Program-made: the position numbers and the translations under genes
Source of the DNA: Dictyoglomus sp. NZ13-RE01
Lineage (GTDB): Bacteria > Dictyoglomota > Dictyoglomia > Dictyoglomales > Dictyoglomaceae
DNA length: 5,973 bases
Reading direction: 5' to 3'
NCBI GenBank assembly: GCA_002878375.1
Contig: NIRF01000029.1
Span: 1 to 5,973 of the forward strand
Part shown: positions 752-4,960 of the stretch, piece after piece
Numbering within the stretch: position 1 is the first letter of the stretch
Layout: the number at the start of each line of letters is the position of its first letter
The notes under the pieces: generated by a model
The model's input: only the letters and a program-made list of their open reading frames with translations
Databases searched by the model: none
Told to the model about the DNA's origin: nothing

Positions 752-1078
752 ATGGCGGTATCAGTAACTGAGGTGCTGCAAAAGCTCTCTAAGGAAAAAA
801 TAGAGCCTGCAGAAGTCGGGACTATTCTTGATGCTGCTAGAGAGGCTGCTATAAAAGCTAGGCAGGAGCTTAGCAAAAAGGTTAAGGAATTTTGGACTTC
901 AGATGAGGGGGAGCTTGTAAGGTATATGCTTGGATGGGAAGCTGAACAGAGCGGATTTGCAGCTGAAATGGAGAGGATAATGAGTAGTGTTAGGGAAGAT
1001 ATAAGAAAGGTTGCTAAAGCTACTGGTCTTGGCAATAAGTACAGGTATGTATGGGGTAAGCCTCCAAAGCCTGCTTAA
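752..1078 (+). CDS. Charged helical protein of unknown function
   Basis: This 108-residue soluble protein starts at an ATG preceded by gaggtggt (741-748), 14 bases after the previous stop. It is almost wholly helical in pattern, rich in Ala, Glu, Lys and Arg, with amphipathic stretches at about residues 3-17, 19-47 and 52-90. The C-terminus is aromatic and basic, then proline-rich (KYRYVWGKPPKPA). It has no cysteines and no membrane segment. It is the last gene of the left-hand cluster, and T-rich DNA follows. Position suggests a virion-associated, scaffold or DNA-binding role, but no motif shows this. Confidence 0.75.
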   Translation: MAVSVTEVLQKLSKEKIEPAEVGTILDAAREAAIKARQELSKKVKEFWTSDEGELVRYMLGWEAEQSGFAAEMERIMSSVREDIRKVAKATGLGNKYRYVWGKPPKPA

Positions 1079-1145: not shown

Positions 1146-1201
1146 TACCACCATCAAAAACTTTATATCCTTAGACTTCAATACCTTAATTGATGGTGGT
1201 A
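1146..1201. repeat. 12-bp inverted repeat flanking the zinc-ribbon promoter
   Basis: The sequence taccaccatcaa at 1146-1157 is the exact reverse complement of ttgatggtggta at 1190-1201. The 32-base gap holds the TATA box, and the right arm is the SD of the 1205 gene. It could be an operator bracketing the promoter. It could also simply reflect two identical SD sites facing away from each other, one of them belonging to a decayed divergent gene. Confidence 0.6.
1162..1168 (+). promoter_or_regulatory. TATA box for the zinc-ribbon gene
   Basis: The sequence tttatat is preceded by an A-rich stretch. Initiation about 25 bases downstream, near 1190, would leave a leader of about 15 bases containing the gatggtggt SD. 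Confidence 0.6.
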
Positions 1202-1204
1202 TCA

Positions 1205-1345
1205 ATGGCTAAATGTCCTTATTGCGGTACAGAAGTCGAAAAACCAATAAAAACATGGGTTATAGCACCTAGGGGTAGAAAAGGGGTAACAGTAGGACTA
1301 TTCAAGTGTACTAGCTGTGGTAAGTACTTTAGGGCTAAACTCTAA
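1205..1345 (+). CDS. Small zinc-ribbon protein (46 residues)
   Basis: The ATG at 1205 follows gatggtggt at 1192-1200. The product has two zinc knuckles, CPYC (residues 4-7) and CTSC (35-38), each followed by a Gly. Between them is a basic, beta-rich stretch ([15 protein letters not shown]), and the protein ends KYFRAKL. This is the classic two-knuckle zinc ribbon layout. As I recall, very similar mini-proteins of about 45-60 residues are common in crenarchaeal genomes and their mobile elements, usually without assigned function. Inference: nucleic-acid binding or a transcription accessory role. The gene is monocistronic, with its own TATA box and a T8 terminator. It is shorter than common length cut-offs, but all four cysteines and the signals make it secure. 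Confidence 0.88.
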
Positions 1346-1430: not shown

Positions 1431-1616
1431 ATGGGTGTGTTGCGTGTTATAACCTTCAAAGTAGATGAAAATACCTTAGAGGAGTTAGATAGATTCTGTG
1501 CTAACAGCGGATTATCACGTAGTAGTGCTATCAGAATAGCAATAAAGAAGCTAATTAGTGAAGGTGTAGAAATAAAGCCAAAGCCAAAAAGGGTAAGGAA
1601 GGTGGAGCTTTATTGA
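1431..1616 (+). CDS. Ribbon-helix-helix (CopG/MetJ/Arc fold) transcription regulator
   Basis: The 61-residue product shows a beta strand with alternating residues (RVITFKV, 5-11) that would pair across a dimer and enter the DNA major groove. Helix A follows (NTLEELDRFCANSG, 14-27), a turn at LSRSS, and helix B (SAIRIAIKKLISEG, 31-45). This is the standard RHH layout and usual length. A basic tail (KPKPKRVRK) may add DNA contacts. The ATG follows ggtggtggt at 1420-1428. It is the first gene of a three-gene operon, and its TGA overlaps the TTG start of the next gene. Family knowledge: such proteins are dimeric repressors, often autoregulatory. The target here is unknown; its own promoter or the repeats at 4111-4666 are candidates by inference. 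Confidence 0.88.
   Translation: MGVLRVITFKVDENTLEELDRFCANSGLSRSSAIRIAIKKLISEGVEIKPKPKRVRKVELY
1597..1607 (+). promoter_or_regulatory. SD site supporting a TTG start at 1613
   Basis: The sequence ggaaggtggag ends five bases before TTG at 1613-1615. No in-frame ATG lies nearby, so this internal SD is what justifies a TTG start overlapping the previous TGA (TTGA). Confidence 0.6.
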
Positions 1617-2487: not shown

Positions 2488-2514
2488 AATCAAATAATTT
2501 TTTTTGGTTTGATT
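2488..2514. terminator. Shared hairpin/T-tract terminator between convergent genes
   Basis: The sequence aatcaaa at 2488-2494 pairs with tttgatt at 2508-2514 around a run of eight T (2498-2505). The T-tract lies 23 bases after the operon stop. The right arm touches the integrase stop codon (2513-2515), so forward read-through into the integrase would be limited. On the minus strand a run of A follows, so termination in that direction is less convincing. Confidence 0.5.
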
Positions 2515-4045
2515 AGGCTATTCCTTGTATTAGTTTCTGCTTAGTTGTTTCTGCTTGTTGCAGATATTCACTTATTAGGCTCATGCTAAACCTCATATAG
2601 AATATCACGGCTGTAGTTATGTCATCCCAGCCTACTCCAAATCCTGTGTTAGCTGAGGACTGTAGCACTAACTCCATAGGTATCCTAAACTCTGCTAATA
2701 TGCTGATATGAGCACTTCTTAGCCTGTGAGGTGTTATTTCCCAAGGTAGCCCTAGAACGTCTCTCAGATTCTTGCACATTTTGCTGTACCATTTCCTAAA
2801 TGCGGATACATTCCATTTACCATCATTATTCACAGGCTTTACACTATGATATAGCAGAATAGACTTAACTACAGACCTATAGCCCTTATGTCTAGCCCAT
2901 TCATAGATTTTCTTCCATTCTTCATGTAGCTGTTTATCTAACCAAGGTAACCTTAGCTCCCACCACTTCTTAGTTTTCTCTTCCCATATCCTAAAGCCTA
3001 GAAGCTCTCCATTTGCTCCCCATATAGCGTTATCCCACTTTATTCCTATGAGGCTAGTATTTACTAAGTCATGGTCTAGGTCTAGCTTCCAAACATCGCT
3101 AGGCTTAATGTTCACTTGTATACCATCTGCTATCATTCTTTCAATTTGTTCTACTATGCTACTCCATCCTTCTCTAGTACCAGCTTCAATGTGCAGACCT
3201 GCAATTAGCCAGAAAGCCCTTAGCTCATTATCGTTAGACTCCTTAGCTAGCTTCTTTAGCTTAATGTAATGCTCATAAAATAGAGTAGCTTCCTTTGGTC
3301 TTATCACATCTCTTACTGTACCAATTCTACCCTTAAACCATTCCCTAAACTTAGGTATCCTCTTCAATAGCTGCATGTATCTCCTTGCACAAACCCTAGC
3401 CTTGAAGTCATCTCCTTGGTTTTCTTCATAGCACTTCATCCTTATTATCTCAAATATCGCATCTTCATCATCCCATAGGTCTGGGTTGCTTGGTATCTCC
3501 TTATTTAGGTGCTTGGTAATCCTATCCTTGTTAGCTAGAATGTACTGAGCTAGCTCATTAACTCGGTTTACTGTGTCTATAAATTGTTTTCTAGTGTAGC
3601 GTATTGAGTGCTTACCCTTCCTTTGGATTTTAATTGGGTTCTTTACAAACTCGATAATGCAGCTAGCTTCTGTTACATCCTTTAGCCATTTCTTAGCCTT
3701 AGGCTTTAACCACTCTTCTGCTGTAGCTTTTACGTCTTCAATTGTAAGGCTTACAGTTTCTATAGTCTTCCTTTCCTTGTTAAATATCGTTATTGGGCTA
3801 CCTTCCTCAAACCTCTTTATCAACTTGTAAAGTGTAGTCTTATCGAGACCTAGTATTTTGCTAAGTTCATTAGCACTTATACCAAACTCCTTGTTAGCAT
3901 ATATCAAGGCTACGGCTTCATCCTTGCTCTCTAATATTGGGTATCCATACTTTGCAAGGCTACCATAGGTCTTCCTTATGTCAGTAACACGGTCTCTTAT
4001 TTGATATATTAGCTGTGCAATTGGTTTAGGTAGTACCTCAGTCAT
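2513..4045 (-). CDS. int: Tyrosine recombinase (integrase) with N-terminal helix-turn-helix
   Basis: This 510-residue site-specific recombinase probably inserts and excises the element in the host chromosome. Catalytic candidates in order are Arg291 (AGTREGW), a lysine in the beta hairpin (EEKTKK, 357-360), His440 and Arg443 (ITPHRLRS), Trp473 in the second His/Trp position (GVGWDD), and nucleophile Tyr483 (IFYMRF). The Trp-to-Tyr spacing of ten fits the family. Residues about 55-80 form a helix-turn-helix (ISANELSKILGLDKTTLYKL), and residues 100-260 are probably the core/arm-binding region. It is much longer than Xer-type enzymes (about 290-300) or, as I recall, the SSV1 integrase (about 335), so it has a large extra N-terminal part. 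The ATG follows ggtgggg on the minus strand (4053-4059). It stands alone, convergent with the regulator operon and divergent from the gene at 4679. No tRNA-like att site is visible in it. All catalytic positions are filled, so it is probably active. Confidence 0.93.
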   Translation of the reverse strand: MTEVLPKPIAQLIYQIRDRVTDIRKTYGSLAKYGYPILESKDEAVALIYANKEFGISANELSKILGLDKTTLYKLIKRFEEGSPITIFNKERKTIETVSLTIEDVKATAEEWLKPKAKKWLKDVTEASCIIEFVKNPIKIQRKGKHSIRYTRKQFIDTVNRVNELAQYILANKDRITKHLNKEIPSNPDLWDDEDAIFEIIRMKCYEENQGDDFKARVCARRYMQLLKRIPKFREWFKGRIGTVRDVIRPKEATLFYEHYIKLKKLAKESNDNELRAFWLIAGLHIEAGTREGWSSIVEQIERMIADGIQVNIKPSDVWKLDLDHDLVNTSLIGIKWDNAIWGANGELLGFRIWEEKTKKWWELRLPWLDKQLHEEWKKIYEWARHKGYRSVVKSILLYHSVKPVNNDGKWNVSAFRKWYSKMCKNLRDVLGLPWEITPHRLRSAHISILAEFRIPMELVLQSSANTGFGVGWDDITTAVIFYMRFSMSLISEYLQQAETTKQKLIQGIA

Positions 4046-4052
4046 ATTTCAT

Positions 4053-4090
4053 CCCCACCATAAACTTATACTATTCTATCCTTTAAAAAG
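4053..4090 (-). promoter_or_regulatory. Integrase promoter and SD (minus strand)
   Basis: Read on the minus strand, a TATA-like ctttttaaa lies near 4082-4090 and the SD ggtgggg at 4059-4053, seven bases before the ATG. Initiation about 25 bases after the TATA box would fall near 4060 and give a short leader. A second candidate, ggttatat at 4106-4099, is also a copy of the repeat found before the 4679 gene, so one protein could bind both promoters. Confidence 0.5.
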
Positions 4091-4264
4091 TTTATCCTAT
4101 ATAACCTTAAGATGGGGGTATATCACATCATGAAATTACTAGCTGCGTCTTATTTACTTTTTTGATTTAACAGATATAGAGAAAACTAGACCCCTGTACC
4201 CCATCATAAATATACGGTTTCTGGAAATCGTAATTTTTTGTTTTTCCTATTAGCAGTTTATGGT

Positions 4265-4288
4265 GGGGGTCATTGAGGGGGTCATTGA
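4265..4288 (+). repeat. Perfect 12-bp tandem repeat gggggtcattga x2
   Basis: The two copies at 4265-4276 and 4277-4288 are identical and adjacent. A partial third occurrence, tcattga, is at 4357-4363, and tcattggg begins at 4381 within an iteron. The second copy forms one side of the hairpin at 4274-4298. Confidence 0.85.
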
Positions 4289-4298
4289 ACCCCCCTCA
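4274..4298. repeat. GC-rich hairpin, 8-bp stem
   Basis: The sequence tgaggggg at 4274-4281 pairs perfectly with cccccTCA at 4291-4298 across a nine-base loop. It is the most GC-rich structure in an otherwise AT-rich region. No T-tract follows directly, so it does not look like a simple terminator. Confidence 0.65.
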
Positions 4299-4371
4299 TC
4301 ATCAAACTGTATTATATTTGGTCATATAGTGGTGATTGGGTACAGGACATCATGGCTCATTGACCCCATCT

Positions 4372-4384
4372 AATGACAGTCATT
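4372..4384. repeat. 13-bp palindrome AATGAC-A-GTCATT
   Basis: This perfect 6-bp inverted repeat has a single central base and overlaps the first cattgggtac iteron. Its size suits a dimeric DNA-binding protein. Confidence 0.55.
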
Positions 4385-4433
4385 GGGTACATTATCTTAA
4401 TACATTGGGTACTATGACCATACATATACCCAT

Positions 4434-4446
4434 CTATAACCTATAG
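4434..4446. repeat. 13-bp palindrome CTATA-ACC-TATAG
   Basis: This perfect 5-bp inverted repeat has a three-base centre and sits at the junction between the iteron field and the AT-rich tract. It is short and could be chance in AT-rich DNA. Confidence 0.4.
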
Positions 4447-4489
4447 CGATGATACAGTAGCCTGTAATTTTAAAAGGTAGGTTGTATTT

Positions 4490-4666
4490 GGTTATAATGT
4501 AGTTATATGATGATAGGTTAGGTCTGGTCATAAGGTAGTTATATTGGAATATAACCACTCTTAACCTTCTATCACCTATTAGTAATAAGATATAAATGGT
4601 TATATTTCGCACCTATCACGATAGGTTAAAAAAGGTTATATATGGTTATATCATTATATGTTATAT
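4490..4666. repeat. Repeated ggttatat/gttatat element before the 4679 gene
   Basis: Copies occur at 4490-4496, 4502-4508, 4538-4544, 4598-4605, 4634-4641, 4644-4651 and 4660-4666. A reverse copy is at 4549-4556, and another lies near the integrase promoter (4099-4106, reverse). The ten bases gtagttatat recur exactly at 4499-4508 and 4535-4544. The copies at 4634 and 4644 are ten bases apart and overlap the likely TATA box, so an RHH repressor bound here would block transcription. AT-richness inflates chance matches. Confidence 0.5.
4611..4626. repeat. 16-bp operator-like palindrome ACCTATC-AC-GATAGGT
   Basis: This perfect 7-bp inverted repeat with a two-base spacer lies just upstream of the TATA box of the RHH gene at 4679. 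Related half-sites are ataggtta (4512-4519) and tcacctat (4571-4578). Size, symmetry and position fit an operator for the RHH dimer encoded immediately downstream (autoregulation, inferred). Confidence 0.55.
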
Positions 4667-4674
4667 GAGGTGAT
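4634..4674 (+). promoter_or_regulatory. Promoter and SD deciding a GTG start at 4679
   Basis: A purine-rich aaaaaagg (BRE-like) precedes the TATA box gttatata at 4635-4642. Initiation about 25 bases on falls near 4664, so an in-frame ATG at 4658 would not be on the transcript. The SD gaggtgat at 4667-4674 lies within what would be the first codons from 4658, and it is ideally placed for GTG at 4679. Confidence 0.6.
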
Positions 4675-4678
4675 GTAT

Positions 4679-4960
4679 GTGGTTAAGGCTCAATTCACAG
4701 TTAGGGTAGAAAAGGAGATTAATGAAGCCTTAGAGAAGAGGGCTAATGAGCTAGGCATCTCAAAGACCAAGCTAGTAGAGAAGATACTAGCAGACTATGT
4801 ACAGGTAAAGCTAAAGGATGACCCTTTGCAACCACTTGAAGCTCTTTGGGCTAAGATTGAAGAGTTAGAAGGAAGATTAGCTAAGATAGAGCAATCACTA
4901 GCTAATAGTAAGCCTACTACTAGCAGCATCGAACCATTCATAAAAAGGGGTAGCAAGTAA
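4679..4960 (+). CDS. Ribbon-helix-helix regulator with C-terminal coiled coil
   Basis: From the GTG at 4679 the protein has 93 residues. The frame also opens at ATG 4658, adding seven residues, but the SD gaggtgat and the promoter position favour GTG. A strand KAQFTVRVEK (3-12) is followed by helix A (EINEALEKRANELG, 12-25), a turn at ISKT, and helix B (KTKLVEKILADYVQ, 29-42), the RHH fold. A short leucine-rich coiled coil follows (LEALWAKIEELEGRLAKIEQ, 53-72), then a flexible polar tail. It is probably a DNA-binding repressor that oligomerises through the coiled coil. It faces the repeat-rich region and a 16-bp palindrome, suggesting autoregulation and possibly control of the divergent integrase (inferred). 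Its TAA overlaps the ATG of the next gene (TAATG). Confidence 0.85.
   Translation: MVKAQFTVRVEKEINEALEKRANELGISKTKLVEKILADYVQVKLKDDPLQPLEALWAKIEELEGRLAKIEQSLANSKPTTSSIEPFIKRGSK

Follow-up and report, generated by a model that had tools for sequence, protein, structure and literature searches.

The window analysed here, the whole stretch of 5973 bp, contains a gene-free region of 612 bp. The description that suits this region best is a regulatory operator array, of a type already known, in an archaeal virus about which little is known. Judged from the sequence, we give a probability of roughly 0.6 to the reading that this is a viral control region in which a bidirectional operator array would be bound by an autoregulating RHH repressor.

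The region separates a recombinase gene from a divergent gene for an RHH protein. Apart from chance ORFs it holds no plausible gene, as the first-pass annotation had stated. No other gene-free region of the window is as long, and this one contains several families of repeats as well as a G-run hairpin. The layout is as follows:

2513 to 4045, minus strand: gene for an HTH plus divergent tyrosine recombinase, with the HTH domain N-terminal.
4046 to 4657, no strand: gene-free control region of 612 bp, flanked by the divergent recombinase gene on one side and the RHH gene on the other.
4250 to 4310, no strand: G-run inverted repeat, with a predicted fold better than that of shuffles (z -2.4 on the plus strand, -3.8 on the minus strand).
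4268 to 4286, plus strand: two GGTCATTG copies, 12 bp apart, within the G-run stretch.
4658 to 4960, plus strand: gene for an RHH plus coiled-coil protein, the likely binder, with RHH_3 and RHH_1 matches above cut-off.

Runs of four or more G number 8 in the region and 10 in the remaining 5361 bp. An Rfam scan gives no RNA at gathering scores; the microRNA-like matches on AT-rich inverted repeats are weak and below threshold, and we take them as chance.

The dominant repeat, overlooked in the first-pass annotation, is GGTYATA, found in 10 copies where 0.66 would be expected. Not one of 300 shuffles beats it when all heptamer families are tested, so multiple testing is covered. For the hexamer GGTYAT there are 12 copies in the region against 8 in the other 5361 bp (Fisher p 7e-8), and the half-site family also includes AGTTATA variants. 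Further, pairs of GGTYAT-type sites on the same strand and 10-12 bp apart occur four times (expected 0.59, reached in 13 of 5000 simulations). The promoter of the RHH plus coiled-coil gene has the highest density of these pairs, and two of the four fall in a 31-nt repeat. When all GGTTATA-like sites are pooled the phasing is not tight. The sites and the elements close to them are:

About 4083 to 4090, minus strand: TATA-like TTTTTAAA, read from the sequence.
4100 to 4106, minus strand: GGTTATA, directly upstream of the likely recombinase promoter.
4320 to 4326, plus strand: GGTCATA.
4413 to 4441, minus strand: cluster of GGTCATA, GGGTATA and GGTTATA, in steps of 12 and 10 bp.
4478 to 4508, plus strand: first copy of the 31-nt repeat; its half-sites, at 4490 and 4501, are separated by 11 bp.
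4514 to 4544, plus strand: second copy of the 31-nt repeat (81%), 36 bp downstream of the first; its half-sites, at 4526 and 4537, are likewise separated by 11 bp.
4550 to 4556, minus strand: GGTTATA.
4598 to 4604, plus strand: GGTTATA.
4634 to 4650, plus strand: two GGTTATA, 10 bp apart (4634 and 4644), over what is likely the TATA box of the RHH gene.

Both the promoter and the start codon of the RHH gene are predicted, with alternative starts at 4673 or at a GTG at 4679, and the overlap of the 4634 and 4644 sites with the TATA box depends on both. As a point against the operator reading, GGTTATAT is partly similar to archaeal TATA elements, while the GGTCATA copies are dissimilar to them.

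The likely binder is encoded directly downstream of the sites. The protein from 4658-4960 shows weak similarity to CopG and AvtR (E 0.017), AvtR being among its best PDB sequence matches, and has a long C-terminal helix in a single-sequence model. The identity of the binder is uncertain, because the window encodes at least two other RHH proteins (1431-1616 and 1810-2475). In the mechanism that we propose, RHH dimers, most likely from 4658-4960, would bind neighbouring half-sites cooperatively, and the bound protein would then spread along the DNA. It would block the assembly of TBP and TFB at its own promoter, that is, repress itself, and at higher occupancy it may also block the recombinase promoter. 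The proposal of arrayed RHH binding made in the first-pass annotation finds support in general terms, for the predicted sites of the GGTYATA family, but not for the motif that was chosen there.

Such an arrangement would have precedents. At their own promoters, RHH repressors of archaeal viruses occupy sites that are repeated or palindromic; they occlude TATA/BRE and oligomerise, starting from distal sites, and are thought to nucleate distally and then to polymerise toward TATA/BRE (PMC5569661). F55 of SSV1 acts at tandem repeats, at several early promoters as well as its own (PMC9608457). By analogy, the one-turn pairs over the RHH promoter, together with the outlying sites toward the recombinase promoter, would fit an F55-type mechanism. 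The likeness to the F55 operators of SSV1 (Tlys/T5/T6/Tind) lies in a small viral RHH repressor and in tandem short sites, there ATAGATAG/ATAGATAGAGT, which lie at early promoters and also at the promoter of the repressor itself (PMC5569661, PMC9608457). The window differs in its motif, GGTYATA, in having far more sites per region and in the coiled-coil tail of the RHH protein, and here binding is predicted. SvtR of SIRV1 and AvtR of AFV6 are likewise RHH regulators of archaeal viruses, and SvtR represses its own promoter (PMC5569661); however, their consensus is an imperfect inverted repeat of another sequence, while the pairs in the window are mostly direct. A scan for aCcr1 boxes shows no enrichment, and we place no weight on it.

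The affiliation of the window follows from its genes. It is the whole of contig C29, one of 34 contigs in an assembly that totals 1.93 Mb, and this assembly is bacterial: the best fit of an rRNA end is the bacterial LSU model, and there are contigs with bacterial IF-2 and PTS enzyme I. The window itself encodes at 1190-1345 (plus strand) a Cren7-like chromatin protein with a zinc-ribbon-like N-terminus, whose nearest relatives are found in Desulfurococcales and other Thermoproteota. The RHH protein at 1431-1616 (plus strand) scores above the cut-off that NCBIfam sets for aCcr1, a family of cell-cycle regulators, and its top relatives among phage records are from Sulfolobales viruses. Further, the protein at 752-1078 (plus strand) matches a structural-gene region of Sulfolobus polyhedral virus 3, with 42% identity across 65% of its length. 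Judging from these archaeal-virus-like genes the window is an archaeal virus or virus-like element, so the words "element" and "virus" had been correctly chosen, and the contig likely comes from an archaeal virus and was placed in a bacterial bin by mistake. It is an incomplete one, since its termini do not overlap, which rules out circular closure, and since a glycosyltransferase gene is truncated by the contig end.

Besides the protein at 752-1078, the likeness to Portogloboviridae includes several DNA-binding proteins and a glycosyltransferase, present in SPV1 and also on the window contig. The difference is that one protein is clearly in common, plus a short RHH match. No capsid proteins were identified on the window contig, and the HTH-recombinase has no match in SPV3. 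Phage records and IMG/VR, searched with DNA and protein, gave no relatives of the region, the recombinase, ORF 1810-2475 or RHH 4658-4960. When IMG/VR was scanned for site pairs, paired ATTGGGTAC was found in 89 stretches and the GGTYATA pair in 15; those that were fetched contain no relative of the element, and their sole similarity to it is one weak glycosyltransferase match.

A few side observations concern the RHH protein at 1431-1616 and the other contigs of the assembly. The former is a viral homologue in a family of archaeal cell-division repressors. C28 (L022) is another virus-like contig of this bacterial bin, and its small membrane protein at 6369-6521 is 51% identical to the one at 371-538 of the window. 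Two contigs are circular, each with a 139-bp overlap: C30 (L023), of about 3.37 kb, has a 735-aa protein resembling a primase-helicase, and C31 (L024), of about 3.08 kb, has a rolling-circle-type Rep, a P-loop ATPase and RHH-like small proteins.

The recombinase has the catalytic residues R...HxxR...Y, namely R291, H440, R443, H446 and Y483, as well as W473, and these are invariant in an alignment of four sequences, the window protein and three relatives. The window protein itself does not match Phage_integrase (PF00589); one relative, L211, passes the cut-off of this family. A single-sequence structure model of the recombinase was discarded (pLDDT 48).

Among 398 sampled Thermoproteota genomes, one contains a full-length relative of the recombinase, with 43% identity. 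The contig concerned, L208 (G415:C21), is 10,442 bp long, and because of a terminal overlap of 39 bp it is probably circular, of about 10.4 kb. It encodes several RHH proteins and has a gene-free region of roughly 730 bp directly before an RHH/coiled-coil gene. G-runs number 8 in this region and 12 in 9670 bp, an enrichment about as in the window. The orientation of the recombinase is unlike that in the window, and the RHH proteins of the two are only 23% identical. GGTYATA occurs once in L208, outside the gene-free region, and is not enriched; the shorter GGTYAT is weakly enriched there, with 4 copies against 11 elsewhere (p 0.018), too weak to be taken as proof of a common motif. ATTGGGTAC was not found in the gene-free region. 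Thus the architecture is common to the window and L208, while the motifs are not clearly so.

The helical phasing proposed in the first-pass annotation concerned another motif, (G/C)ATTGGGTAC, for which seven copies had been claimed. Five of them are:

4196 to 4205, minus strand: GATGGGGTAC, SATTGGGTAC with one mismatch.
4334 to 4343, plus strand: GATTGGGTAC, exact copy of SATTGGGTAC.
4361 to 4370, minus strand: GATGGGGTCA, claimed copy with three mismatches, left uncounted.
4381 to 4390, plus strand: CATTGGGTAC, exact copy of SATTGGGTAC.
4403 to 4412, plus strand: CATTGGGTAC, exact copy of SATTGGGTAC.

Four of the seven hold, the exact copies at 4334, 4381 and 4403 and the one with a single mismatch at 4196, which falls within one arm of an imperfect inverted repeat of 22 nt, the other arm being 4325-4346 (82%). 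Three do not: at 4361 (minus strand) there are three mismatches to SATTGGGTAC, and the copies at 4111 (plus strand) and 4425 (minus strand) are missing even at three mismatches, a gap or indel being needed to fit them. The sequence at 4425 is a better fit to the GGTYATA-type family, as TGGGTATA, one mismatch from TGGTTATA. A spacing of 20, 22 and 22 bases had been read from this set, but it depends on two weak copies, those at 4361 and 4425. Between the exact copies the distances are 47 and 22 bp, or 4.48 and 2.10 helical turns, so these copies share no common face of the DNA and the claim of helical phasing fails there.

In the 1.93-Mb assembly exact SATTGGGTAC occurs four times, three of them here, and if one mismatch is allowed 4 of the 89 copies of the assembly fall within 217 bp here. 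As the window carries archaeal-virus genes in a bacterial bin, such a density is a comparison with a foreign chromosome and says little. Further, the motif was picked for its repetition, and a fair test is therefore against all motifs. Some 9-mer with three copies in the 612-bp region appears in 139 of 2000 dinucleotide shuffles, and the Poisson score of ATTGGGTAC, which includes the expectation, is equalled or beaten in 24 of 500 shuffles when all 9-mers are considered. In the sub-region 4046-4450, picked post hoc, ATTGGGTAC is matched in 0 of 200 shuffles. Against all 9-mers, the three exact copies are thus borderline.

We treat these copies, with the same borderline standing, as a secondary family in the middle of the region. 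They may be bound by a second regulator, or they may be degenerate members of the GGTYATA field. That they are chance or decayed sequence with no function is a real possibility, though short of probable. It agrees with the two shuffle results, with the non-helical spacing and with the absence of the motif from the gene-free region of L208. Loss in relatives had been named in the first-pass annotation as evidence against its own reading, and such a loss is seen here for one distant relative. The chance reading does not agree well with three exact copies inside 79 bp when the whole assembly has four, or with the one-mismatch copy nearby, inside the 22-nt inverted repeat.

For the claim that the region is a replication origin we find no positive evidence, and we consider it unlikely. 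On this reading ATTGGGTAC, GGTYATA or both would serve as iterons for an initiator, which might be an RHH protein and would melt the DNA next to them. The length of the gene-free region, its several repeat families and its G-run hairpin would suit an origin, as would the similar gene-free region in L208. No initiator can be recognised in portogloboviruses (PMC8459092), which have one structural-region protein in common with the window, and the window too may thus have an unusual one. However, no initiator gene is recognised among the window proteins, on a contig that is incomplete. The switches in GC skew track the strand of the genes, the skew being negative over the recombinase gene on the minus strand and positive over the genes on the plus strand. 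In 100-bp bins the AT content of the region ranges from 0.56 to 0.71, compared with 0.63 overall. No melting zone stands out from this, and no AT-rich unwinding zone lies by the repeats. Regularly spaced identical iterons were not found either, given the distances between the exact copies. Further, SATTGGGTAC-type motifs are missing from the L208 region, and the strongest sites overlap a promoter. In general there is a resemblance to plasmid iteron origins in having short repeats in a gene-free region; the differences are that the window has no recognised initiator gene adjacent, no regular iteron spacing and no distinct AT-rich zone.

That the region is an attP, with the repeats as arm-type sites for the N-terminal HTH of the adjacent recombinase, seems quite unlikely. 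The recombinase gene, starting at 4045, adjoins the region and encodes both an HTH and a catalytic domain, and a lambda-like attP of about 240 bp has several Int sites (PMC8371274). The core of an attP matches a host site, often the 3' end of a tRNA. In contrast, no tRNA-derived core was found in 4046-4657, a comparison of L208 with its own host assembly gave no convincing att match, and a review of archaeal recombinases searched for arm-type sites offered no archaeal example. Also, the strongest repeats are found at the RHH promoter, a long way from the recombinase gene.

It is very doubtful that the region unites origin and control, with the RHH/coiled-coil protein nucleating on the GGTYATA pairs and serving as a replication initiator or segregation factor as well as a repressor; such a locus would be set in the HTH-recombinase lineage (window and L208), which has no recognisable replication protein. 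Other RHH proteins work as ParR- or omega-like partition proteins. In archaea, SegB is an RHH segregation protein (PMC12284271). That the region is a partition (centromere) site for such a ParR- or omega-like protein, which would regulate its own gene as a side effect, is highly improbable here, for although the RHH plus coiled-coil gene adjoins phased short repeats, no ParA- or ParM-like partner gene is recognised in the incomplete window.

The operator array that we favour replaces a weak claim of an origin with a testable operator map. It names candidates for the operator motif and for the repressor in a lineage of archaeal viruses that is poorly known, and the region is a reasonable test site for the replication of archaeal viruses that have no recognisable initiators.
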